DNA from: Pigmentibacter sp. JX0631
GTDB taxonomy: Bacteria > Bdellovibrionota_B > Oligoflexia > Silvanigrellales > Silvanigrellaceae
Length of the DNA: 64,000 bases
NCBI RefSeq assembly: GCF_029873255.1
Contig: NZ_CP123622.1
Location: forward strand, 3,075,001-3,139,000
Reading direction: 5' to 3'
The notes beneath the pieces are model-generated. The model ran no database searches. It saw nothing but the letters and a program-made list of their open reading frames with translations, and had not been told where the DNA came from. Position 1 is the stretch's first letter, and the number at the start of each line of letters is the position of its first letter. The position numbers and the translations under genes were made by a program. Shown here one piece after another: positions 6,781-38,854 of the stretch.

Positions 6781-7542
6781 ATGAAAAAAATTTTCACAAT
6801 ATTTTATTTATTTTTTTCTTTCACAAGTGAGGCATTGACGCTTAAATTATTCTATCCCGATAAAGATTCTCCCCCCAATCAAATGGGAAACGATGATAAA
6901 GTAGCAAAACCTCCAGGTTTGTCCCTTGATATTATTTCTAAAGCGGCAAGTGATCTCAAAATAAATATTGAATATTTTCGAGTACCTACAAATAGGGTTT
7001 TTATTTCTTTAAAAAAAGAAGAAGCAGATGGCATTTTTGTTTTTTCTTATTTACCTGAAAGAACTGAATTTGGAGTCTTTCCTTTTAGTAATGGTAAAGC
7101 TGATAGTACAAGACGAGTGTTTTCTTTGAAGTATCATTTTTACAGGTATAAAAACTCAACGGTATCTTGGGATGGGAGTAAGCTCTTAAATTATCATTCT
7201 AATATAGGAGCATCTAGAGGGAGCTCAGTCTTAGAAACTTTAAAAAAATTAAATATTCCTTTTGAGGAAAGTAAAGGTTCTGAAGTTTTATTTAAAAAAG
7301 TGAGTACCGGTAGGCTAGATGCATTGGTGGAACACGATTTAACAATTGATATATTTAACTCAAAACTACCAGATCATCATAAAATTATTAAATTAAATCC
7401 AGCTGTCCTTGAAAAAGATTATTTCTTAGTTTTTGGAAAAAGTTTTTATGAAAAAAACAAGGATCTATGTGAAAAATTTTGGAATCAAATTGGAAAAGTA
7501 AGGGAAAACACTATAAAACAAAATATTCATAAATATAAATAA
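6781..7542 (+). CDS. Periplasmic solute-binding-like protein (SBP family 3 type)
   Basis: A 253-residue exported protein. Signal peptide about residues 1-18 (MKKIFTIFYLFFSFTSEA), then an alpha/beta pattern typical of family 3 solute-binding proteins: GLSLDIISKAASDLKINIEYFRVPTNRV, a region with RGSSVLETLKKLNI, and DALVEHDLTIDIF. No ABC permease or ATPase accompanies it, so it may be an orphan binding protein. Family 3 domains also serve as sensors or in quinoprotein systems. Its neighbour is a second protein of the same type. AAAGGA lies directly before ATG 6781. Confidence 0.65.
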   Translation: MKKIFTIFYLFFSFTSEALTLKLFYPDKDSPPNQMGNDDKVAKPPGLSLDIISKAASDLKINIEYFRVPTNRVFISLKKEEADGIFVFSYLPERTEFGVFPFSNGKADSTRRVFSLKYHFYRYKNSTVSWDGSKLLNYHSNIGASRGSSVLETLKKLNIPFEESKGSEVLFKKVSTGRLDALVEHDLTIDIFNSKLPDHHKIIKLNPAVLEKDYFLVFGKSFYEKNKDLCEKFWNQIGKVRENTIKQNIHKYK

Positions 7543-7585
7543 TATGTGCTTGGATTTGACATACACTTTTTGGAAGAATTAAAGA

Positions 7586-7614
7586 TTGTTATACTTCATA
7601 AAATATGATATAAA
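7586..7614 (+). promoter_or_regulatory. Candidate sigma70 promoter for the 7652 gene
   Basis: TTGTTA (7586-7591), a 17-bp spacer and TATAAA (7609-7614), with TG one base before the -10 box (extended -10). It lies 38 bp ahead of the start codon in the 109-bp gap between the two solute-binding-like genes, suggesting separate transcription of the second gene. Confidence 0.5.
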
Positions 7615-7651
7615 ATAAAAACAAATTTAAAAATTTATTTTTGGTAGATAT

Positions 7652-8398
7652 ATGAAAAAAATAATTCTAATTTTTCTGCTTATCTTTGTAAATTCTGCTT
7701 TTGCAGAAGAGGTCGATATTGTTATATTAACACATGAATTTTCAAATCAAACAGTGGCTTTAAATGAAAATAAAATAACAGGAATAGCTGGAGATATTCT
7801 TACCAATGCTTTAAGTCAAAGTAATATCTCTTACAAAATTATTTATCTTCCTTGGAAAAGAGCTCAATTAGATACTTTATTAAACTCAAATAAAAAAACT
7901 TTTATCTTACCTCTAACTAGAAATGAAGAAAGAGAAAACAATTATATTTGGGTTTCAAAACTGTATGAATTAGAATCCATTTTTTTAACTTTGAAAAGTG
8001 AAAAAAATATCGATAACTTTAATGATGCCAAAAATAAAATAATAGGAGTACTTTTTGGGTCTTCCATGGAACAAACTTTAAAAGATACTAAGAATGGATT
8101 GTATCTAGAAAATATAGAAACATCTTTTAATCAAACAGCTATTTTAAAAAAACTTCTCGATAAAAGAATTGATACTTGGTATGATGTAAAGATTGATATT
8201 GTTGCTGAACTTAAGAATCAAAATCAGGATATTTCAAGTTTTAATTTTGGAAAAAAAATAGATATAGAAGAAAATTTTCTTGCTACTTCAAAAAATGTTC
8301 CAAAAGAATTAATTCAAAAAATTGAAAATTCCTTTGAAAAATTTAAAAAAACTCCCGAATATATTAAAATATTAAAGAATTATTTAGGGAAAATTTAA
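7652..8398 (+). CDS. Periplasmic solute-binding-like protein (SBP family 3 type)
   Basis: A 248-residue exported protein. The signal peptide is MKKIILIFLLIFVNSAFA with a clear AFA-EE cleavage site. The mature chain has the family 3 pattern: GIAGDILTNALSQ, IIYLPWKRAQLD, a region with IGVLFGSSMEQTL, and DTWYDVKIDIVAELK. It is similar in size and layout to its upstream neighbour but clearly diverged from it. No transporter genes follow; the gene ends at a strong bidirectional terminator. The substrate is unknown, and a sensory or accessory role is possible. Confidence 0.65.
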   Translation: MKKIILIFLLIFVNSAFAEEVDIVILTHEFSNQTVALNENKITGIAGDILTNALSQSNISYKIIYLPWKRAQLDTLLNSNKKTFILPLTRNEERENNYIWVSKLYELESIFLTLKSEKNIDNFNDAKNKIIGVLFGSSMEQTLKDTKNGLYLENIETSFNQTAILKKLLDKRIDTWYDVKIDIVAELKNQNQDISSFNFGKKIDIEENFLATSKNVPKELIQKIENSFEKFKKTPEYIKILKNYLGKI

Positions 8399-16562: not shown

Positions 16563-17621
16563 TTACTTTAGTTTTTTAAAAAAATTACTTATATCATTAT
16601 AATAATCTTTTATAAAAAAATTATTTTTTTCAAGCCAATTGAAATTATAATAAGTATTTGCGTATCTCTCACCTGAATCACAAAGCAAAGTTACAATAGA
16701 ACCTTCTTCTTTTTTCTTTTGCATTTGCTTGATGATTTCAATGACTCCACAAAAATTTGTACCCGTTGAAGGGCCTCTTTTATAATCTAAAAAATCAGCC
16801 AAATAATGCATTGCAGCAATTGAAGCAGAATCTGGTATTTTTAGCATTTGATCAACAATTTCTTTGATGAATGATTTTTCAACTCGTGGCCTGCCAATGC
16901 CTTCAATTTTTGATGAAAAATTTGCCTCAAAATCTTCAGTAATTTTTTTATTGTAGTAATCGTAAAATACAGATTGTTCAGGATCAACAACACATACTTG
17001 TGTATCAAGAGATTTATAACGAATGTATCTTCCTATTGTTGCACTAGTGCCGCCAGTGCCTGCACCTATTACGATCCATTTTGGAATGGGAAAACGTTCT
17101 TTATTCATTTGCAAAAAAATGGCTTCTGCAATATTATTGTTACCACGCCAATCAGTTGCTTTTTCTGCATATAAAAATTGATTCATAAAATAAGAATTTT
17201 TATTTTTACCTAATTTTAATGCTTCATTAGAAACTTCTGTTGGATTTTTCACCAAGTGGCAGTAACCGCCGTAAAATTCTATTTTTGCAATTTTTTCTTT
17301 AGAAGTATTTTCTGGCATTACTGCAATAAATTTTAATCCGAGCATTTTAGCAAAATAGGCTTCAGAAACAGCAGTTGATCCAGATGAAGATTCTATAACA
17401 GTTGATTTTTCATTTAAGAAACCATTACAGAGGGCATATAAAAATAGTGATCTTGCTAAACGGTGTTTCAAGCTTCCTGTAGGGTGAGCGGATTCATCTT
17501 TAAAATAAAGATCAATATTTTTTAATTGAGGAACAGAAACCTTAAATAAATGTGTATCAGAAGATCTGTTAAAATCAGCTTCTATTTTTTTCATTGCTTC
17601 CTTCAGCCAAGATTTATTCAT
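16563..17621 (-). CDS. PLP-dependent cysteine synthase-family enzyme (possible cysteine desulfhydrase)
   Basis: A 352-residue fold-type II PLP enzyme. The PLP lysine is Lys52 in HPTGSLKHRLA, with the substrate-loop motif ESSSGSTAVSEA and the phosphate-binding GAGTGGTSATIGRYIRYK. The last motif and the CVVDPEQSVF segment resemble the actinobacterial Cds1-type cysteine desulfhydrase more than classical CysK, so release of sulfide from L-cysteine is a reasonable guess; O-acetylserine sulfhydrylase activity cannot be excluded. The SD AAAGG is seven bases from ATG 17621. No cysE or sulfate-assimilation genes are nearby. Confidence 0.8.
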   Translation of the reverse strand: MNKSWLKEAMKKIEADFNRSSDTHLFKVSVPQLKNIDLYFKDESAHPTGSLKHRLARSLFLYALCNGFLNEKSTVIESSSGSTAVSEAYFAKMLGLKFIAVMPENTSKEKIAKIEFYGGYCHLVKNPTEVSNEALKLGKNKNSYFMNQFLYAEKATDWRGNNNIAEAIFLQMNKERFPIPKWIVIGAGTGGTSATIGRYIRYKSLDTQVCVVDPEQSVFYDYYNKKITEDFEANFSSKIEGIGRPRVEKSFIKEIVDQMLKIPDSASIAAMHYLADFLDYKRGPSTGTNFCGVIEIIKQMQKKKEEGSIVTLLCDSGERYANTYYNFNWLEKNNFFIKDYYNDISNFFKKLK

Positions 17622-17690: not shown

Positions 17691-18731
17691 TTAAAAATTA
17701 ATATTTAATGAATTAAAAATATTTGTAAACTCATAATTTTTTTGATTTTTTAATCCGGAACATATTTTTAAGTTGAGATTTTTACGACATCTTTTGTCTC
17801 TTTCAAGCGACCACATTCTTATTTCAGATAATTTCAACTTTTTGCTTTCTATAAGCAAATTTTTTGCATCATGAAGTGTAAAAATTTCGTTTTTTAAATC
17901 ATTTCTTCCAATCATAGGAGTTACAGAAATTGTATTAAATAAAAATTCATTTTTTACTTTTTTATGTATTTTTTTTAAAAATAGAAAAGAATTTATAAGA
18001 GCCGATTGTGTATATTTAAACATATTTCCACTTAGATCTTCTGCATAATTCATGGTTAATAAATTTACTGTAAATTTAATATTCTTGTTTACTAATTCAG
18101 ATAGCAATTCTTTTGTAACAGAATTAAGGCCAGAAGGCATAACAGGTATTGTTATCGAAATTTTCAAATTTTGGTAGATATTTTGTAAATCTTTAATAGC
18201 ATTCATAATTTTTTTTAAGGCAACTTTATTGTCAAGAATTTTTCCTTCGAGGTCAAAATCTAATCCTACTGGCTGATATATTTTTATGATTTTTTCATAA
18301 TTTTTAAGCAATTCAGCCGAATTTTTGCAATAAATTGCTAAATTATTTCCATCTTGCCCACCAAGGGATATGAAGTAAGAAACATCAGTTGATTTAATTT
18401 CATTTAAAAGTTTGATAATTTCAATTTTATCAATTTTATTGTTTTTTAAACCATCCCATGCAGGAAGACATTTATCAGCATCTTGAATAAAAGAAAGAGT
18501 AATATATTTTAGATTATTTTTCTTTATTACTTCTTTTAAAGACAAATCCCCTTTTTTTTCAAGATATTCGGTAAATTCACTATAAGGGTTAAAAATAGTC
18601 TTTGACATAGTTTGTGATAAAGCAATATCAAATAAGAAAAAGTAATTAAAAGCTAAAGTAAAAATTATTCTTAAAGCTAATCCTCCTTTGTTGTTAGTCA
18701 ATAATTTTAATTTCACTTTAGTAGTTACCAA
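17691..18731 (-). CDS. Exported GH18-like glycoside hydrolase
   Basis: A 346-residue protein with an N-terminal hydrophobic segment ending near DIALSQ (signal peptide) and a TIM-barrel pattern of family 18: ISLGGQDGNN (the SxGG strand), the catalytic motif GLDFDLEG (DxDxE, where E is the acid), then MNYAED and a C-terminal MWSLERDKRC (family Trp strand). GH18 enzymes cut beta-1,4-GlcNAc polymers, and the related GH153 domain of PgaB cuts deacetylated PNAG. ATG 18731 lies inside the end of the response-regulator gene (14-bp overlap). A strong AAAGGAGG occurs internally at 18688-18681 with no standard start codon after it. Its neighbours suggest it acts on the polymer made by the adjacent synthase. 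Confidence 0.7.
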   Translation of the reverse strand: MVTTKVKLKLLTNNKGGLALRIIFTLAFNYFFLFDIALSQTMSKTIFNPYSEFTEYLEKKGDLSLKEVIKKNNLKYITLSFIQDADKCLPAWDGLKNNKIDKIEIIKLLNEIKSTDVSYFISLGGQDGNNLAIYCKNSAELLKNYEKIIKIYQPVGLDFDLEGKILDNKVALKKIMNAIKDLQNIYQNLKISITIPVMPSGLNSVTKELLSELVNKNIKFTVNLLTMNYAEDLSGNMFKYTQSALINSFLFLKKIHKKVKNEFLFNTISVTPMIGRNDLKNEIFTLHDAKNLLIESKKLKLSEIRMWSLERDKRCRKNLNLKICSGLKNQKNYEFTNIFNSLNINF

Positions 18732-19647
18732 CTAGAATTTTTGCCATCGTATTTATTGTTGCAGAAATTTTATTATCTTTGCTTGTTTTTGTATAGTAAA
18801 AAACATTTTTAAAGGCAGTATTAAATGAGTTTCTTATCAAAAACATAGAAGAATAAATTTGATTTCCTTCATTTGTACTAAATAAAACATCTGGGTCATC
18901 AAAAAAAAGAATATAGCTATTTAAATCAAAAGTTAGCATTCTTTTCATGTCAAAAATGACAGAAGATAATTCTTCTAAATAAGGCAATCGTGAAATTAGT
19001 GAGGGTTTTATTTGCAAAAAAACAATTTTTCCTTCCGCAAAAACTTCAACAGGAATTTCTATGTTCTTAAAAAAATGTTTGCCATCTAATAACGAAAGAA
19101 TTAAAATGTTCTCTCCTTTTTTATAGTAATCTAAAATTTCTCTTTTTATTTCCATATCTTTTTCAGATGTGTTAAATCCAATGAAAACTTGACATTTCCC
19201 GTCATTGCTATTGATTCTATTATTTAAAATATTAAGTAAATTTTTCACATCATTTGAAACTTGAAGAATATCAATTGGCTTTGGCATGTACTTAGTTGCG
19301 CCAAGTTCATTTGCTCTTCTTCTGGTACTTTCTTCTTTGTCACCACTGACACAAATTATAGGAATTGAGGATAAAATTGGATGCGCGCGAAAAAAACTTA
19401 GAATTTCAAATCCATCTATATTGGGCATATTGAGATCAAGTAAAATTAAATTTGGTTCTTCTTTTTCAGCAATGACCATTGCATTTGTGCCAGAAAGTTC
19501 ACTGATAACTTTAAAATGTTTTGAAAGTGCTTTGGAAATAATTTTTTGCGAAACTTCATCATCATCTATGTACAAAATTTTTTTCTTCTCAATATTTTCT
19601 TCAGGTTTTTTTTCAATTGTAAAATCAGGTTGCTGGCTATCTGTCAT
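18718..19647 (-). CDS. Response regulator with receiver domain and uncharacterised C-terminal domain
   Basis: A 309-residue protein. Residues about 22-135 are a receiver domain: acidic cluster DDD (28-30), phospho-acceptor Asp71 in LILLDLNMP, Ser101 in CVSG and Lys123 in MPKPID. The remaining 170 residues contain no recognised DNA-binding or enzymatic domain; they resemble an alpha/beta sensor-like or PilZ-sized domain and end in SATINTMAKILVGNY. AAAGGA precedes ATG 19647. It overlaps the GH18-like gene by 14 bp and is divergent from the polysaccharide synthase operon, so it likely controls polymer synthesis or turnover by protein contact or by an unrecognised regulatory domain. Confidence 0.8.
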   Translation of the reverse strand: MTDSQQPDFTIEKKPEENIEKKKILYIDDDEVSQKIISKALSKHFKVISELSGTNAMVIAEKEEPNLILLDLNMPNIDGFEILSFFRAHPILSSIPIICVSGDKEESTRRRANELGATKYMPKPIDILQVSNDVKNLLNILNNRINSNDGKCQVFIGFNTSEKDMEIKREILDYYKKGENILILSLLDGKHFFKNIEIPVEVFAEGKIVFLQIKPSLISRLPYLEELSSVIFDMKRMLTFDLNSYILFFDDPDVLFSTNEGNQIYSSMFLIRNSFNTAFKNVFYYTKTSKDNKISATINTMAKILVGNY

Positions 19648-19799
19648 CAGTAAATCCTTTAATTACTGTATATTTTACTAAATTTTTAATATTTAATATC
19701 CGTGTCAAATTTATTTTACTAAGAATTATGTGCCTATTCCTATTATTTTCTATAACTCGATAAGAGTATGCGGGAATGTTTAATCAATAGGTATATAAT

Positions 19800-21122
19800 A
19801 TGGTAAGAAAAAACATTTTAAAAATGAAAGATAAAGAGCTATTTTTCATTGTTGTTATTGTCTTACTAATTTGTACATTTTGCATATTTGTTTTATTTAA
19901 AAGTTATGATTTTTCTAAATTAACAGGTGTAGAACTTGGTTTCTTTTATGCAATGCGGGTTTATTTACTTTTTCTATTTGTAAGATTACTAGGTCATTTA
20001 TTTTTTAGTTTTGCCAATCATTTTTTTGCAAAAACTATTGAAAAACTAGATTACTATCCTCTAGTTACAGTGATTATTCCCTGCTTTAATGAAGAAAAAG
20101 TAATTAATAATGCTGCTAAATCAATTTTGAGTATGAATTATCCCAATATAGAAATATTAATTGTTGACGATGGTTCGTCAGATTCCACAATTGAAGTCAT
20201 TTCTTTACTTGAAAAAAAAGGGCGGATTCGGGCTATTCATCAAGAAAACGCAGGGAAGGCTACAGCTCTTAATAGAGCTGTGAGTGAAGCGCATGGCGAT
20301 TATGTTCTTTGTATGGATGCTGATAGTGTATTAAATACCGAAGCTATCGAGGTTGGAATTAAATATTTTGAACAAGATCCTAAAGTCGCAGCCGTAGCAG
20401 GTAGTGTTGAAATTGGCAACGTCAATAATGCGATTACCTCTTTCCAAAAACTAGAATACATTTCAGGTCTAAATTTATTCAAAGTTGCACAGTCCTTTTT
20501 GGGAAGTGTTATTGTTATTCCAGGTCCTGTAGGCCTTTTTCGAAAAGATATTTTGCTTGAAGTCGGAGGATATCATTCAAATACTTTTGCTGAAGATTGT
20601 GAATTAACTATCAGACTTTTAATGGCTGGTTACAAAACTGTTTATGATGCAAAAATGGTTGCAGTGACGGAAGCACCTGATGACTTTAATTCACTAATTT
20701 CTCAAAGATATCGTTGGAACAGAGGGATTGTACAAGCAATTAGAGAAAATATTATTTGGTTATTTTTACCACATAAAAGTTTAAAAAACTTTTTTATTAT
20801 TATTTATATGATTTTAGAATCAATATTTATACCAGTGGCTAATTTTGGTTTTGGAATGTTTTCTATAGCCTATACTTTGATACATAGTTCTGAAAATTTT
20901 GTTGGTTATTTCTTTTTTCAACTTGTTATACTTGATATAATTGTTACCTTATTTTGCATTGTGACAGAAAAAAGATCATATTCTTTACTTTTCTACTCTG
21001 CCATTAATCGCATTACATATTCATTTTCCTTGGAAGTAGTGAGATTTTTTTCAATTCTAGACGAGTTTTTGCGACTTCCTATGAATTGGTCAAAATTAGA
21101 ACGCAAAGGTATGGACTCATGA
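19800..21122 (+). CDS. Processive family 2 glycosyltransferase (PgaC-like polysaccharide synthase)
   Basis: A 440-residue inner-membrane synthase. Two N-terminal helices (about 15-33 and 43-70) precede a GT-A domain with VIIPCFNEE, VDDGSSDST (D123/D124), MDADS (173-175), AEDCELT (E265/D266) and the processive QRYRW signature (302-306); three or four helices close the protein. This motif set is that of PgaC/BcsA/hyaluronan-synthase-type enzymes that polymerise UDP-sugars while extruding the chain. The PgaC-like spacing and the neighbouring deacetylase suggest a GlcNAc polymer. The SD before ATG 19800 is weak (AGGT); ATG 19824 is an alternative. Its stop overlaps the next start (ATGA). Confidence 0.9.
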   Translation: MVRKNILKMKDKELFFIVVIVLLICTFCIFVLFKSYDFSKLTGVELGFFYAMRVYLLFLFVRLLGHLFFSFANHFFAKTIEKLDYYPLVTVIIPCFNEEKVINNAAKSILSMNYPNIEILIVDDGSSDSTIEVISLLEKKGRIRAIHQENAGKATALNRAVSEAHGDYVLCMDADSVLNTEAIEVGIKYFEQDPKVAAVAGSVEIGNVNNAITSFQKLEYISGLNLFKVAQSFLGSVIVIPGPVGLFRKDILLEVGGYHSNTFAEDCELTIRLLMAGYKTVYDAKMVAVTEAPDDFNSLISQRYRWNRGIVQAIRENIIWLFLPHKSLKNFFIIIYMILESIFIPVANFGFGMFSIAYTLIHSSENFVGYFFFQLVILDIIVTLFCIVTEKRSYSLLFYSAINRITYSFSLEVVRFFSILDEFLRLPMNWSKLERKGMDS

Positions 21123-23230
21123 TTATACAAAATATATTAAGTATATTTGTTCTATCATTGTGTCTTGCGACGCTCTTTATTACTTTAGTTACATATTTTT
21201 TATATCGCTTCAAGCAATTGCTGAAATTAGGTAAAGTTGATGCAACTCAAATTATTGAAGGTGTTTTTTTTAAGAAATATGCTCCATATATTAAAGCAAA
21301 AGAAAAAAAAGAAAAAAATGAGTTTGATAGTAAGTTAAGTGATAGAAAAACATTGATGAATTTTTTTGCTGTTATAGCTATTATTATTTTTATTTCTCTT
21401 ATTGCAGGGTACCTTTATAGTTATTTTAGACTGGGTGAAAAAACAATAGATACTAAAAAATATGAAGGTCTATTAGCAAAAGGACTTATGAAAGAATTTC
21501 CATTAAACTCTTTACAAGAAGATCCAGCATTTATTGAGTTTATTTCAGAAGAAAAAAAGAAAATTATGCAGTCTAATTTTTCTAAAATGAATCAATATAA
21601 AATTGCAATTTATAAACCAGATAAATATAAAGAGTTTGAGAAAAATCAAGGCATAATTTTTGAGGGTTGGAAACTATTTTTTGATAAGTACAAGTTTAAT
21701 TATACTATATTTTCAGACTTTAGTGAATTAGATTACGGAAAAATAAATTTGTTATTGCTACCAAATTCAATTTCGTTAAACAAGAAAGCGAAAATTGAAA
21801 TTGAGAAAATACTCAATCAAAAAATTCCAGTGTTTGCCACTGGTGCAGTAGGTTATTTTGATGGGCTTGGAGATATCAATCGTGATCAATTTGCTGAAAA
21901 AATATTTGGTGTAAAACTAGAAAAAAGTAAACTAAAAAGACCATATTATCCCACACTTTTTAAAGCAAATAGCATTCCTTGGATTGATGTTCCTCCTGGA
22001 TTATTACTCAATTATTTTCCCTATGATAATCAATTTCATGCGCATTTTATCGCAGGATTTCCATCTATTTTTGAAGGAAACACCCAATCAGAAATTCGTT
22101 CAGATAAATATGATTCAGAATTTGTTGTACGAGGAGTATTTAAAGAAAGTAATGCTAGAACAGTTTGGTTAGCCTTAGATCCTCCAGTAAAAGATCAAAA
22201 GGTTTTAGAATCTGAACAATATTACTTAGAACTTCTGTTTCTTAATTCTTTTCAATGGGCTTTGAATCTGCCACAAGTATTGAAACCAGCTTGGAAAGAT
22301 TTAGCAAAAACTGTGTTTGTCCCTTCCTTAGAAATATATGCGCATAATAATTTCATAAAAAATTATATTGAAATTTTTAAGGATTATCGCTTTCCAATGA
22401 CCATATTTCTAACTTCAGAAGTTATCCAAGAAAATCCGCAATTCATTGAGGAAGAAGGAAATCCAAGTATAGAATTTGCTTCACTTGGAGAAGATGAGAA
22501 AATTTTACAAGGAAATAGTTTGCAGTTCCAGTTCCAAGAAATTCAAAATTCAAGATTACTAGTTGAAGAAGCCTGGCAAAATAAAGTTTTTGGATTCAAA
22601 GCATCTGATGCAAAATTTGATGTTGTAACTTTAAATGCTTCTATGCAAAATGGATTGCATTATTTTTTAGGTAAACATAACTTATTTAGATTATCCCCTG
22701 TTCCCTTAGATGAAACTAATTTTGTTTATATCCCAAAAAATTATGCAAAAGAACTAAAAATGTTTAAGGCTTCAAAATTTCACAACTCATCGCTGCTTTA
22801 TAATGATTTATTAAATCAATTTTTAGAAGTTGAAAAATTAAATGGAGCTGCATTTTATAATTTTCCAGCTAAATATTTTGGCTCTAAAAATTTGGAAAAA
22901 GCTTTAGATAATTTTTTAAAAGATATTTCTAAAAAAAATGTATGGAAAACTAACTATATTAACTTAGCACTTTGGTGGCTAGAAAGAGAGAATATTTCTG
23001 TTAATTTGATTACTGAAAATGGAAAAAATAAAATTTTAATTAAAAATAATAATAATTTTAAAATTGATTCTTATTCATTAATATTAGCTAATATTAAAGA
23101 TAAAAAATACAATATTTTTATCAATAATAAGAGTTTAAAAATAGATTCTACGGATTCATATGACTATATTAAAATTGATGATATAAATCCAAATAGCACT
23201 GTTATTATAAATTTACAGGAAAATATATGA
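21119..23230 (+). CDS. Membrane-anchored periplasmic protein with degenerate polysaccharide-deacetylase-like domain
   Basis: A 703-residue protein starting at ATG 21119, which overlaps the synthase stop (ATGA). Helices at about 5-30 and 80-102 anchor a large periplasmic part. The first periplasmic segment has an alpha/beta pattern (KINLLLLPNSISL, then IPVFATGAVGYFDG) like a glutamine-amidotransferase-like domain. The later part resembles a NodB fold with lost catalytic residues: VFVPSLEIYAHNN in place of the TFDD strand, SLGEDEKIL in place of HxxxH, and GFKASDAKFD in place of RxPY. A C-terminal beta-rich tail follows. It may guide or bind the nascent polymer rather than deacetylate it. The homology is inferred by eye. 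Confidence 0.65.
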   Translation: MIIQNILSIFVLSLCLATLFITLVTYFLYRFKQLLKLGKVDATQIIEGVFFKKYAPYIKAKEKKEKNEFDSKLSDRKTLMNFFAVIAIIIFISLIAGYLYSYFRLGEKTIDTKKYEGLLAKGLMKEFPLNSLQEDPAFIEFISEEKKKIMQSNFSKMNQYKIAIYKPDKYKEFEKNQGIIFEGWKLFFDKYKFNYTIFSDFSELDYGKINLLLLPNSISLNKKAKIEIEKILNQKIPVFATGAVGYFDGLGDINRDQFAEKIFGVKLEKSKLKRPYYPTLFKANSIPWIDVPPGLLLNYFPYDNQFHAHFIAGFPSIFEGNTQSEIRSDKYDSEFVVRGVFKESNARTVWLALDPPVKDQKVLESEQYYLELLFLNSFQWALNLPQVLKPAWKDLAKTVFVPSLEIYAHNNFIKNYIEIFKDYRFPMTIFLTSEVIQENPQFIEEEGNPSIEFASLGEDEKILQGNSLQFQFQEIQNSRLLVEEAWQNKVFGFKASDAKFDVVTLNASMQNGLHYFLGKHNLFRLSPVPLDETNFVYIPKNYAKELKMFKASKFHNSSLLYNDLLNQFLEVEKLNGAAFYNFPAKYFGSKNLEKALDNFLKDISKKNVWKTNYINLALWWLERENISVNLITENGKNKILIKNNNNFKIDSYSLILANIKDKKYNIFINNKSLKIDSTDSYDYIKIDDINPNSTVIINLQENI

Positions 23231-24201
23231 GAATTATAATTTTCATTATCGTGCTACTTTTTCCAATATATTGCTGGGCTGAAATGAGTCAGTTGTCAGG
23301 TATTTATTCCTATCATCAATCATCAGATGAAATGTTTATGCATTCTTCAAGCATTGCATTTCGCAGCAATCGGCGAGATTTATCTTTTCCTTATGCAAAT
23401 GAAAATGAAGTTGGTTGGGATTTTGGTGGGTCTTTACTTACTACTCAAGGGTTTAATTCTGTAAATAATTATAATGGACAAAGGGGTTATTTTTTATTAG
23501 CAAGAAAGTTCAGCTCCAATTTCCAAATAGATATTACTTCCGGTGCGCACAGGGCTTATGATACAAATAATAATAATGATAAAACCATATATAGTGGTGA
23601 AATAAAATTGTTTCTTCATTCAGATGATTTATTTGATTTAATTTTATCTGCTAATCGAGATTATGCTTATATCTATACAATTCAACCAGGCGGTACCAAT
23701 GATCGCTTAACTACAGATGTATTAAATTTTTCATTTACTTACAACTTTTTTCCATTTTTAATGACAAGAATGAATGAAAATTATTTTTACATTTCCGATC
23801 AAAATACAAAATCAGTTTCTAATGTTTCACTTTTATATGGCATTGCTACTGATGAACCATGGATTTGGGTAGGTATCGGTTATGAAAATACTTCTTATAA
23901 ATACAATACAACGAATTATTGGTCGCCTTCTGCATTTATGGGGTTTGGCTTTCGTTCCGAAGCAAGTGTTCCAATTTATGTAATTGATAATATTTATTTA
24001 AATTTGGAGTTTAATTACAACCGTTTATGGGATAAAGATAATTGTAGTAGAGGAAATGGAGTCGCAGTTGTCTCAAAATTGCAAATTGGAAAAAGAGATG
24101 ATCATAACATTTCATTTTTTTATAATCGAATTAATTCAATACAAGATGGAAATTTATGGTTTTCTAATGAAGCAGGTATGATGTTCAATTTAATGTTCTA
24201 A
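23227..24201 (+). CDS. Outer-membrane beta-barrel, candidate polysaccharide export porin
   Basis: A 324-residue protein: signal peptide MRIIIFIIVLLFPIYCWA, then a chain of alternating aromatic/polar strands (FDLILSANRDYAYIYT, LNFSFTYNFFPFLMTRMN, WIWVGIGYENTSY) ending in FNLMF. A terminal Phe is the recognition signal for outer-membrane barrel assembly. Its start overlaps the previous stop (ATGA), so the synthase, the degenerate-deacetylase protein and this barrel are translationally coupled. Position and fold suggest the outer-membrane step of polymer export, by analogy with PgaA or BcsC, though it lacks their TPR domain. Its stop is 1 bp from the stop of the convergent deacetylase. Confidence 0.7.
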   Translation: MRIIIFIIVLLFPIYCWAEMSQLSGIYSYHQSSDEMFMHSSSIAFRSNRRDLSFPYANENEVGWDFGGSLLTTQGFNSVNNYNGQRGYFLLARKFSSNFQIDITSGAHRAYDTNNNNDKTIYSGEIKLFLHSDDLFDLILSANRDYAYIYTIQPGGTNDRLTTDVLNFSFTYNFFPFLMTRMNENYFYISDQNTKSVSNVSLLYGIATDEPWIWVGIGYENTSYKYNTTNYWSPSAFMGFGFRSEASVPIYVIDNIYLNLEFNYNRLWDKDNCSRGNGVAVVSKLQIGKRDDHNISFFYNRINSIQDGNLWFSNEAGMMFNLMF

Positions 24202-24202
24202 A

Positions 24203-25204
24203 TTATTTACAAATTGAATTTAACCATGATTCTTCTAAATATGGAAACGGAAATTCTTTGAAAGTTAATTTTCTTGAACGGCGCATTTGTTCAAAAAATG
24301 GGATACCTAATTTCATAGGTAGTGGGAAATCTTCTTTATAGATTGGGTCTAGTATGGCAGTTTTTGCAGGAACTAATTTAACATTATTTCGTTTAAATTT
24401 TTCTAATATTTGAGGTAATGCAGCTGCATTCAGTGGGTTATAATGTAACAATAAAATATGGGGAAATTTTCTATTCTGTCCATAAATATAATGACCTAAT
24501 TTATCGCTATAGGTTAATACATGAAATATATGAGTAATATATCGATCTATTAATTCATTTATTTCTTTTTCTAAATAGCCACTTTTGCAACGAATAAATG
24601 CATCATTATATGACCAATCTTCTGAATCAACAGTTACTTGTGCTATAACATAATTTCTTTTTGAAAAATAACTGCGAATATCATAACGTTTCTCAGTAGT
24701 ATTTCCTTCCATTAAATATGGAAAACGAAAAATTTTTAATTCAGGAATAGTTTGGACATAATCTAATAAAATAGATTCATTTCTTTCAATATCTTGAATA
24801 AATTCTTCCGAAGTAACTTTTTTCAGATCTGAATGCGAAAAAGTATGATTGCCTAGTAAAAATCCGTTACTTTTCCATTCTTTTAATATTTTTGCCTGTA
24901 ATTCATTTTGGTAAAGTAAAATACCATTCATAAATCCGTAGACTTCAGGAACTTTATTATCAGTTAATGCTTTGATTATTTTTGCGGAAACTTCTTCACG
25001 CGACATGAATTTTGCTTCAGGACCTGCGGCAGGTAAATCATCAATTGTGATTGCTAATTGTATTGGTACTGAAAAGGGTTTTATTACATATTTAAAGTTT
25101 TTATCTAGAATAATTTCTTCAGGTTTTTCTGAAGAATCATCTAGAGCAAAAATAGGATGCATGAAGGAAAAAAACATAAATATTAGAAAACATTTAAATT
25201 TCAT
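24203..25204 (-). CDS. Exported polysaccharide deacetylase (NodB fold, complete active site)
   Basis: A 333-residue protein with a signal peptide (about 1-20, ending PIFA). All NodB motifs are present: TIDD (D55/D56), HTFSH (H120 and H124, metal ligands), FRFPY (R160, P162, Y163), SEDW (about 194-197) and the LLLHYN strand (H254). It should remove N-acetyl groups from an amino-sugar polymer in the periplasm. It follows the Hpt gene with an ATGA overlap and is convergent with the synthase/export operon, which makes the locally produced polymer its most likely substrate; peptidoglycan is the main alternative. Confidence 0.85.
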   Translation of the reverse strand: MKFKCFLIFMFFSFMHPIFALDDSSEKPEEIILDKNFKYVIKPFSVPIQLAITIDDLPAAGPEAKFMSREEVSAKIIKALTDNKVPEVYGFMNGILLYQNELQAKILKEWKSNGFLLGNHTFSHSDLKKVTSEEFIQDIERNESILLDYVQTIPELKIFRFPYLMEGNTTEKRYDIRSYFSKRNYVIAQVTVDSEDWSYNDAFIRCKSGYLEKEINELIDRYITHIFHVLTYSDKLGHYIYGQNRKFPHILLLHYNPLNAAALPQILEKFKRNNVKLVPAKTAILDPIYKEDFPLPMKLGIPFFEQMRRSRKLTFKEFPFPYLEESWLNSICK

Positions 25205-25569
25205 TTCAATGAACCTTTAATTTGTAAAAGTTCATTTGCAACATTTTCATACTCTTTTTTAATTTCATTAAATATATTTTTTGCTTTTTCAACTTCATTT
25301 GTAGCTTTTAAATCTTCTAATGATTGACATTTTCCGCCTAAAATATCAGCTCCCAATGCTCGTACGCTTGATTTAATTGAGTGTGATTCTTTTGCAGCTG
25401 CTTGAAGATCATTTGCGCTTAAAAAATTTTCAATATTAACTAATTTTTGCGGAGTTGTTTTTAGCAATGTTTCAATTAAGTCGAGCAAGAAGTCAGGTTC
25501 ACCGTCTTCTTGCAGCATTTTTAAACCTTCAATTGTTTGATAATTTATATGTTTTAAGCTGTCATTCAT
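25201..25569 (-). CDS. Stand-alone Hpt phosphotransfer protein
   Basis: A 122-residue all-helical protein with the histidine phosphotransfer motif ESHSIKSSVRALGA; His63 is the phospho-acceptor and Lys66 and Gly73 are at the conserved positions. It has no kinase or receiver domain, so it would relay phosphate between a hybrid kinase (not in this window) and a response regulator. The response regulator at 18718-19647, across the exopolysaccharide operon, is a plausible partner. AGGA is eight bases before ATG 25569. Its stop overlaps the deacetylase start (ATGA). Confidence 0.88.
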   Translation of the reverse strand: MNDSLKHINYQTIEGLKMLQEDGEPDFLLDLIETLLKTTPQKLVNIENFLSANDLQAAAKESHSIKSSVRALGADILGGKCQSLEDLKATNEVEKAKNIFNEIKKEYENVANELLQIKGSLK

Positions 25570-35743: not shown

Positions 35744-37252
35744 ATGTTTAAGAAAAAAGGGATTAAATATAAGATATTGCTTAATAGTTTTATTTCTATT
35801 TTAATTTTCTCAATATTTCTAGTTTGGTTGACTATTACTTACTGGAATTTACTCCTAAGTAGTAAGAAAGAAAAATTACAAAGTATAGTTGAAGTTGCAT
35901 CAACAGTTGTTAAGTATTATACAGAAGAAGAAAAAAAAGGAGCATTAAGTAAACAAGAAGCCCAAAAAAGAGCAAAGGCTGATATTAATGCCATAAGATA
36001 TTCAGGAAATGAATATGTTTTTATTACAAATTCTAAAGCGTATCAAGTATTAAATCCCGTGAAACCTGAACTTACCGGAAAAGATATGTCCGAGTTCAAA
36101 GATCCTACTGGTTTGAAATTATATGTAGAAATTGCAAAAGTAGCAATGGCTTCAGGTACTGGATATATTGAATATATGTTTCCAAAAGCGGGTTCTACTA
36201 CTCCGACTAAAAAAATATCATATATAAATTATTTTCCAGATTGGGATTGGATTGTAGGAACTGGTTTATATATTGATGATGCTTATGCAGCTCTTTATTA
36301 TTTTATTAAAGTTTTATTAATCGATTGTTTTATCTGTATTGTTTCTTTAATTATTATTGGAATATTTTTTGCTTCTTCAGTTCAAAAACCTTTAAAAGAA
36401 GTTTGTCATTCATTGCTAAAATCATCGATTGAATTACAAGAAAAAAGCATTGTATTACAGGAGTCTAGTAGTAGAGTAAAAAACTATTCAAAAGAACAAG
36501 AATCATCTATTCAAATGACTGCCGCAGCAATTTCACAAATCACAAGCATGATTGGAAAAACAACTGAGCTCACAACGCATTCAGCAAAACTTGCGAATGA
36601 TATATCCCAAAAAGCAGGAGAAGGAGAAATATCAATGAAAAATATGATTTCTTCTATGCAAGCAATATATGAAGCAAGTTCCAAATTAAAAGAAATAGAA
36701 AGCATTATTAATCAAATAGAAAGTAAAGCCCAAGTAATTACTGAAATTGTGGCCAAAACTGAGCTTTTATCTTTGAATGCCTCAATTGAAGCGGCGCGTG
36801 CAGGCGAACATGGAAAAGGATTTTCAGTCGTAGCGGAAGAAGTTGGAAATTTAGCGCACACAAGTGGAAAATCTTCAGATGAAATAAGAACATTATTGCA
36901 ACAAAGTCGTGAACATGTGCAAAAGATATTAAAAGAAACTTTGTCAAGAATTTCTGATGGACAAAATCGAACAGCAAAAGTATCTGAATCATTTATAAAT
37001 ATTGTGGAAGGAATTAAAAATATTAATCAACAAATGGGACAAATTTCTGATGCGACGAAAGAACAAGAAATTGGTGTAAAGCAAATTGCGAATGCTATGG
37101 GGCAACTAGATCAATTAGCGCTAAAAAATACCACTGAATCTGAAAAATCATTAGAAGTAACAAATGTGATTCAAAATGAAAGTAGCAATTTAAAAGTAGT
37201 TGTGGAAAAGACTGAAAATGTAGTTTTTGGTTTTAGAAAAAAAACAGCATAA
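35744..37252 (+). CDS. Methyl-accepting chemotaxis protein with single Cache sensor
   Basis: A 502-residue receptor: TM1 at about 11-32, a periplasmic single-Cache (sCache_2) domain with [18 protein letters not shown] and the terminal [16 protein letters not shown]2 at about 185-207, then a signalling coiled coil with the canonical hairpin tip [20 protein letters not shown]. No clear HAMP domain lies between TM2 and the signalling helix, and there is no CheR-binding pentapeptide. sCache_2 domains often bind small organic acids. It is tandem with a paralog 90 bp downstream. No flagellar or che genes are in the window. Confidence 0.93.
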   Translation: MFKKKGIKYKILLNSFISILIFSIFLVWLTITYWNLLLSSKKEKLQSIVEVASTVVKYYTEEEKKGALSKQEAQKRAKADINAIRYSGNEYVFITNSKAYQVLNPVKPELTGKDMSEFKDPTGLKLYVEIAKVAMASGTGYIEYMFPKAGSTTPTKKISYINYFPDWDWIVGTGLYIDDAYAALYYFIKVLLIDCFICIVSLIIIGIFFASSVQKPLKEVCHSLLKSSIELQEKSIVLQESSSRVKNYSKEQESSIQMTAAAISQITSMIGKTTELTTHSAKLANDISQKAGEGEISMKNMISSMQAIYEASSKLKEIESIINQIESKAQVITEIVAKTELLSLNASIEAARAGEHGKGFSVVAEEVGNLAHTSGKSSDEIRTLLQQSREHVQKILKETLSRISDGQNRTAKVSESFINIVEGIKNINQQMGQISDATKEQEIGVKQIANAMGQLDQLALKNTTESEKSLEVTNVIQNESSNLKVVVEKTENVVFGFRKKTA

Positions 37253-37342
37253 ATATATGATTTAAAAGAATTATATAAAATTTCTTATCTTTCTAATAAA
37301 AAAACCCGATTGTGAAATATGCCTATTTTTGAAGGGTATTTT

Positions 37343-38854
37343 ATGCTGGGTAAAAAAGGGATTAAATTTAAAATTATCTTAAACAGTTTGCTTTCTATCA
37401 TGATTTTTACTCTTTTCTTAGTTTGGATTTCCAATATCTATTGGGAATCACTCATGCATAATAAAAAAGATATCTTACAAGATATTGTTCAGGTTGGGAA
37501 AACTGTTACAGCCCACTTTATTGAACTAGAAAAAAAAGGAACAATGTCGAAAGAAGAGGCTCAAAATAGAGCAAAAGAAGTTATTAATACAATTAGATAT
37601 GGCGGAAATGAATATATTTTTATTACTAATACCAAGGCATACCAAGTTTTAAATCCTGTTAAACCAGAACTTTCTGGTAAAAATATGTCTGAATTTAAAG
37701 ATCCTACTGGATTTAAATTATATGTAGAGATAGCTAATTTAGCCGTGAAGTCGGGTACTGGATTTATTGAATATATGTTCCCTAAAGCAGGATCCACAGT
37801 ACCAACTAAAAAGCTTTCTTACATTCATTATTTTCCTGAATGGGACTGGATAGTAGGAACAGGTTTATACATGGATGATGTTTCAACCTCGATGACAAAA
37901 TTTTTAGAAGTTCTACTTTTTGCATGCGTATTTTGTATTATTACCTTTATATCAATTGGTATTTACTTTGCAAATTCAGTAGTAAAACCGCTTTCTGAAG
38001 TCTGTCTTTCATTAATAAATGCTTCAAAAGGACTCATGCAAAAAAGTGATGAATTAAAAGTCTCAAGTAGTAGTGTAAAAAAATATTCCAAAGAACAAGA
38101 AACTTCTATTCAAACAACAGCGGCAGCAATTTCAGAGATAACAAGTATGATTGGAAAGACAACTCAATTGACTGGAAATTCTGCTGATTTAGCTAATTCT
38201 ATTTCAGGGAAAGCAGAACAAGGTGAAGTTTCAATGAAAGATCTTATTTCATCAATGAAGGGGATTCAAGAAGCTAGTTCTAAGTTAAAAGAAATAGAAA
38301 TTATCATTAATGAAATTGAATCTAAAACAAAAGTTATCAATGAAATTGTTTCAAAAACAGAATTGCTTTCATTAAATGCTTCAATTGAAGCTGCAAGGGC
38401 AGGTGAACACGGGAAAGGATTTGCAGTTGTTGCAGAAGAAGTTGGTAACTTAGCGCATATGAGCGGAAAATCCTCAGGTGAAATTCAAACTTTACTGCAA
38501 AAAAGTAGAGAAGAAGTTCAAAGGATATTAGTTCAAACTATACAAAAAGTGGAAGAAGGACAAAAAAGGACAGCAAAGGTTGCAGAAGCTTTTTCAGATA
38601 TTGTGAATGGTGTTAAAGATATAAATTTGCAAATGGGGCAAATTTCAGATGCAACTAAAGAACAGGAAATTGGTGTGAAACAAATAGCTAATGCAATGGG
38701 GCAACTTGACCAGTTAGCTTTTAAAAATACAGGTGAATCAGAAAATTCTTTAAAAGCTACAGAAGAAATTTCTAATGCAAGTCAGCATTTAACAGATATA
38801 GTTGATAAAACAGAAAATGTCATTTACGGCGAGAAAAAGAAAAAGACTGCATAA
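37343..38854 (+). CDS. Methyl-accepting chemotaxis protein with single Cache sensor (paralog)
   Basis: A 503-residue tandem paralog of the preceding receptor with the same layout: TM1, sCache_2 ([32 protein letters not shown]), TM2 and the signalling tip [20 protein letters not shown]. Divergence is concentrated around TM2 and at the C-terminus. The longer reading frame begins at 37319, but AAGGG six bases before ATG 37343, and the match of MLGKKGIKF to the paralog's MFKKKGIKY, fix the start. It ends 5 bp from the convergent membrane-protein gene. Confidence 0.93.

Follow-up and report, generated by a model that had tools for sequence, protein, structure and literature searches.

A conserved seven-gene locus in Pigmentibacter sp. 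JX0631 that probably encodes a synthase-dependent exopolysaccharide system with a dead-esterase scaffold

We report a block of seven genes at positions 17691-25569 of a 64,000-nucleotide stretch (the window) of the Pigmentibacter sp. JX0631 genome (G000; 3.65 Mb, one contig), a locus that is real, coherent and undescribed within the literature searched. The block probably encodes a synthase-dependent exopolysaccharide system whose product would be a partly de-N-acetylated N-acetylglucosamine (GlcNAc) polymer, chitosan-like rather than poly-N-acetylglucosamine (PNAG). What is new is the gene combination, together with a predicted dead-esterase scaffold; the enzyme families themselves are already known. 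Literature searches on the trifunctional protein family, on exopolysaccharides in Silvanigrella relatives and on the Listeria Pss proteins yielded no paper on such a locus. Its features are as follows.

17691-18731, minus strand: GH18 hydrolase of predicted ChiA/exochitinase-1 type (346 aa; signal-peptide-like N-terminus, TTG start)
18718-19647, minus strand: response regulator (receiver domain and a 160-aa output domain without known family)
19648-19799, strand not applicable: divergent intergenic region between the regulator unit and the synthase unit, from open reading frame (ORF) layout and a reading of the sequence
19800-21122, plus strand: processive family-2 glycosyltransferase (GT2), the polymer synthase (440 aa; membrane helices at both termini)
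21119-23230, plus strand: 703-aa protein anchored in the inner membrane (hairpin of two helices, GATase/ThuA-like domain, CE4-like domain lacking the catalytic residues, beta-rich tail)
23227-24201, plus strand: candidate outer-membrane beta-barrel porin (324 aa with a signal peptide; some 14 strands and no tetratricopeptide repeat (TPR))
24203-25204, minus strand: periplasmic CE4 (NodB-type) deacetylase (333 aa, with the five CE4 motifs intact)
25201-25569, minus strand: histidine phosphotransfer (Hpt) protein, overlapping the CE4 gene by ATGA

Gene order and orientation are identical in four genomes of one genus (G000, G002, G006 and G007), while the surroundings vary: G002 is syntenic with G000, the flanks of G006 are partly different, and every flank in G007 is different. 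Because the arrangement is kept in G002, G006 and G007, in the last with wholly unrelated flanks, and because purifying selection acts on each of the seven (dN/dS 0.02-0.23; NG86, G000 versus G002), the block is one unit, beyond chance. This bears out the check on neighbourhood conservation proposed by an earlier reading of the window made from the sequence only: the genes stay together in four genomes, once with unrelated flanks. Constraint is strongest on the regulator (dN/dS 0.02) and the GT2 (0.03), and the GH18 evolves fastest (0.23, with 69% amino acid identity between G000 and G002). The Hpt and CE4 genes are neighbours in each of the four genomes, and the 703-aa protein, the barrel and the regulator output domain are each confined to these same four among the 56-58 searched in the phylum. 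Neither the 703-aa protein nor its alignment found relatives in genome contigs, the pattern-based scan being weak for so shallow an alignment, and a plasmid search with the protein found none. A PALP-family gene at 16563-17621 was considered as a further member and ruled out, as it is missing from the block in G006 and G007.

Two ATGA overlaps join the GT2 ORF to that of the 703-aa protein and the latter to the barrel ORF; this operon of synthase, large membrane-anchored protein and barrel lies where the sequence-only reading had placed it. (An alternative upstream TTG start would lengthen the 703-aa protein to 714 aa.) The left unit, of response regulator and GH18 hydrolase, diverges from the GT2 unit, and the right unit, of Hpt and CE4, runs towards the barrel gene, a single base separating the CE4 and barrel genes. 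The sequence-only reading named five of the seven genes in this span, leaving out the response regulator and the Hpt protein. Promoter-like matches in the divergent intergenic region and terminator scans were no better than in shuffles, and an Rfam search gave no match.

The synthase matches PF00535 (E = 1.3e-34) and PF13641 (E = 5.3e-31), has the complete processive GT2 signature (DD123-124, D173-A-D, ED265-266 and Q302-x-x-R-W), and by hydropathy has membrane helices flanking the catalytic part on both sides. It is the only strong PF13641 match in G000, where one weaker match lies in a 343-aa frame. In pairwise comparison its core scores 165-183 bits against GH18-CE4-GT2 and CE4-GT2 fusion proteins, versus 126 against PgaC, 90 against NodC and 53 against BcsA; hosts of the fusion proteins among its best matches are Sphingomonas, Prevotella, Deinococcus, Sulfitobacter and Kocuria. 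The fusions have the three activities in common with the block, where they are present and linked, but a fusion is a single polypeptide, whereas the block has three separate genes plus a membrane scaffold, a barrel and a phosphorelay pair, and BLASTP found no match between the block GH18 and the GH18 portion of the fusions. In Kocuria rosea (L026), a CE4-GT2 fusion adjoins a separate ChiA-type GH18 (27% identity to the block GH18, E = 1e-33), which, as far as sequence can tell, is an independent coupling of GH18, CE4 and GT2 activities. We also observed ORFs of ∼720-740 aa with a GT2 domain in the C-terminal half in other families of the same class (L046, L047 and L048, from G020, G021 and G028, respectively); sized and laid out like the CE4-GT2 fusions, these may be a second route to a similar polymer.

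The hydrolase and deacetylase on the flanks are both borne out. Pfam makes no GH18 call for the 346-aa hydrolase, but a four-orthologue profile matches, over nearly its full length, exochitinase 1 (9buf, E = 1.5e-56) and a Pyrococcus chitinase (2dsk, E = 3.9e-37), and the DxDxE motif noted by the sequence-only reading is DFDLE at residues 158-162, with D158, D160 and E162 invariant in the four genomes. By these matches the hydrolase is a predicted chitinase-type GH18 (Pyrococcus ChiA/exochitinase-1) and not a GH153. The NodB-type protein, earlier described as complete, matches PF01522 (E = 4e-15) and, as a profile against the PDB, a PgdA-type deacetylase (5o6y, E = 2.3e-9). It contains all five CE4 motifs (TIDD, HTFSH, RFPY, D-W and LLHY), and D55, D56, H120, H124, R160, D193/D196 and H254 are invariant in the four genomes. 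The phosphorelay pair comprises the Hpt protein (PF01627, E = 2.1e-12) and the response regulator, whose receiver domain spans residues 24-129 (PF00072, E = 1.3e-19) and whose C-terminal 160 aa (window 18718-19200) matched no known family.

In the 703-aa protein, hydrophobic helices at residues ∼1-30 and ∼76-106 are separated by a positively charged loop, which would be cytoplasmic, with the remainder of the protein periplasmic. The first helix (TM1) is the most conserved part: its identity is 89-92%, compared with 26-56% for the periplasmic domains. This suggests a fixed membrane partner, most obviously the synthase, whose gene lies immediately upstream. Residues 145-270 are the best-modelled part of the AlphaFold2 model, much of it at a predicted local distance difference test score (pLDDT) in the 80s, and have ThuA-like proteins, the GH42 GATase-like domain and PhzE as Foldseek relatives. 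There follow a CE4-like stretch (residues 410-515), matched by Polysacc_deac_1 in three of the four orthologues (best E = 2.4e-7) and by Glyco_hydro_42M in one, and a beta-rich tail. The CE4-like domain has no HxxxH and no invariant His across the four orthologues, and lacks both metal site and catalytic base. Profiles of the protein against the CE4 gene product and against PgaB gave nothing, as expected from four close sequences, and there was no match to DUF2334 in Pfam.

This order of domains has parallels. PelA has an alpha/beta domain with ThuA-like proteins and PhzE as relatives, then a deacetylase, then a beta-rich domain (PMC12022489); PelADA crosses the membrane once, has alpha/beta/alpha and CE domains and is modelled with its helix in contact with PelG (PMC13254593); and Agd3 combines a GATase-like carbohydrate-binding module with CE18 (PMC7229062). 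PelA (CE21), Bacillus PelADA (CE26) and Agd3 (CE18) have in common a GATase/ThuA-like domain, a CE4-related domain and a C-terminal domain, in that order, and the 703-aa protein appears to resemble this layout with a dead esterase; like PelADA, it is membrane-anchored. Unlike PelA, it lacks the metal site and catalytic base as well as the PelA hydrolase domain and has two membrane helices, and the block has a GT2 where Pel has PelF/PelG. A Listeria locus (L062: GT2, DUF2334 protein, BcsB-like protein and diguanylate cyclase) is similar in having its GT2 directly after a CE4-like protein, but it is Gram-positive, has no barrel and no GH18, and includes a c-di-GMP gene.

The AlphaFold2 model of the barrel candidate has 14 strands and no TPR, in keeping with the earlier remark that a TPR porin is missing. 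Foldseek places OmpG first (E = 1.9e-8) with CymA near, and the PelB barrel at rank 6. The sequence has no significant match in Pfam or the PDB, and its profile against YaiO and against PgaA gave nothing, again as expected from four close sequences.

From these components we infer the polymer chemistry, the step of each protein, export through the barrel and the regulation. The GT2 would polymerise a UDP-N-acetylhexosamine (UDP-HexNAc), with UDP-GlcNAc joined by beta-1,4 linkage as the likeliest case, and extrude the chain across the inner membrane; a beta-1,4 GlcNAc, partly deacetylated polymer is favoured because a chitinase-type GH18 and a CE4 accompany the GT2. Anchored beside the synthase by its two helices, the 703-aa protein would take the chain in a PelA/PelADA-like groove and, since it would be unable to deacetylate it, would act as a partner of the synthase and as a guide. 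Part of the N-acetyl groups would then be taken off by the soluble periplasmic CE4, the GH18 would trim or clear acetylated chain, and the chitosan-like cationic polymer would exit via the 14-strand barrel. The Hpt protein and the response regulator, whose genes lie one in each outer unit, would couple output to a phosphorelay. Tentatively, we go further and suggest that the 703-aa protein might be a pseudo-deacetylase turned synthase partner, having kept a PelA-like groove, lost the metal site and gained a synthase-binding hairpin, so as to do the job of PgaD and act as periplasmic guide while the CE4 and GH18 deacetylate and hydrolyse in trans; with its own barrel and output domain, the system might then represent a new class of synthase-dependent secretion. 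To our knowledge, in known Gram-negative synthase-dependent systems the outer-membrane exit is linked through a TPR or bridged in some other way, and an active modifying enzyme lies on the export route; this one appears to dispense with both. A bacterial chitosan-like matrix would become directly testable through this locus.

Several observations weigh against such a system. The models are of low confidence, both for the 703-aa protein (pLDDT 48.8; no PDB chain matched its sequence at E≤1) and for the barrel (pLDDT 53.8); no direct sequence link of the 703-aa protein to PelA was found, and the block encodes no TPR or periplasmic bridge protein. GH18 and CE4 are encoded on their own transcripts, apart from the GT2 operon, and members of both families are also used to feed on chitin or to act on peptidoglycan. 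A second ChiA-type GH18 (C1:2755196-2756206; L045:7176-8219), 41% identical to that of the block, is present in G000; none of its neighbours is homologous to the remaining block genes, and it is away from any exopolysaccharide gene seen. Finally, the GT2 tree leaves the nearest clade open, rejecting grouping with neither PgaC (approximately unbiased test, p-AU 0.126) nor NodC (p-AU 0.424).

That tree result also bears on a strongly diverged PNAG (Pga) system, in which the GT2 would be a PgaC orthologue making beta-1,6-GlcNAc, the CE4 would stand for the PgaB deacetylase, the barrel for PgaA and the 703-aa hairpin for PgaD. The two are alike in outline (GT2 synthase, deacetylase, hydrolase and outer-membrane exit), the 703-aa protein does start with a two-helix hairpin, and of the NCBIfam models PgaC_IcaA (TIGR03937) fits the GT2 best. 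Its score of 206 bits nonetheless falls short of the cut-off of 422.3, so that PgaC level is not reached, and the GT2 core scores higher against the fusion proteins than against PgaC. The block lacks PgaB, GH153, a TPR porin of the PgaA type and PgaD, and has instead a chitinase-type GH18 and a five-motif CE4 on its own gene. Nor does a known operon elsewhere explain the motifs, as the sequence-only reading had allowed: in all eight genomes of the genus, PgaB (PF14883, GHL13/GH153; control positive in E. coli) is absent, and BcsB (PF03170) and PelF (PF11997) were not found. We therefore consider a diverged Pga system unlikely. The earlier proposal that the functions of PgaA, PgaB and PgaC are spread over separate genes is not supported, for the same reasons, the 703-aa protein appearing PelA/PelADA/Agd3-like in layout and not PgaB-like; the broader proposal, that of an amino-sugar exopolysaccharide locus in which the synthase, the modifying enzymes and the outer-membrane component have genes of their own, is supported, the polymer itself being putative.

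The separate transcripts of the GH18 and CE4 would also suit two unrelated neighbours, a small exopolysaccharide operon (GT2, 703-aa protein and barrel) beside a secreted GH18 and CE4 that act on host or prey chitin or on peptidoglycan. A probable relative parasitises Daphnia, and its chitinases have been read as host-degrading (PMC12321486); the rapid evolution of the GH18 fits as well. Yet the seven genes stay together even where every flank changes, and other phyla have GH18, CE4 and GT2 as a single fused polypeptide, which makes this account improbable. Least probable is a polymer that is not HexNAc (e.g. a mixed or hyaluronan-like glycan) with the CE4 acting on O-acetyl groups: GT2 sequence alone cannot fix the donor, and solved-structure relatives include hyaluronan and cellulose synthases, but a chitinase-type GH18 encoded in the same conserved block as an intact CE4 speaks for an N-acetyl hexosamine, and Pfam finds no uronic-acid gene within the seven-gene block.

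The locus appears to be decaying in two near-identical genomes. In G007 (genome of 2,806,830 bp), an insertion sequence of ∼1 kb splits the GT2 gene (L008:11095-12112; 297-aa transposase-like ORF, 28-bp inverted ends 93% alike). Genome G003 is >99% identical to G007 around the locus, yet the GT2, 703-aa protein and barrel genes are missing from it, and its contigs break inside the CE4 gene (end of C39, L057) and inside the GH18 gene (start of C42, L044:1-100) at the same 20-bp inverted end. Loss of the operon by deletion around another insertion sequence is the best reading, although the missing genes may, less probably, reflect a contig gap. Spirobacillus cienkowskii, a Daphnia parasite with a 2.81-Mbp genome, has three chitinases with high diversity (PMC12321486). 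If it is of the G007/G003 lineage, and if one of the reported chitinases is the block GH18, then that hydrolase would be part of a decaying matrix locus, and its diversity may reflect relaxed constraint in a broken locus, as a rival to diversifying selection.

Elsewhere in the window, two tandem periplasmic solute-binding (SBP_bac_3) proteins are encoded at 6781-8398; a related gene adjoins the GH18 gene in G006 (L007:14056-14811). Two Cache-domain chemoreceptors lie in tandem at 35744-38854.

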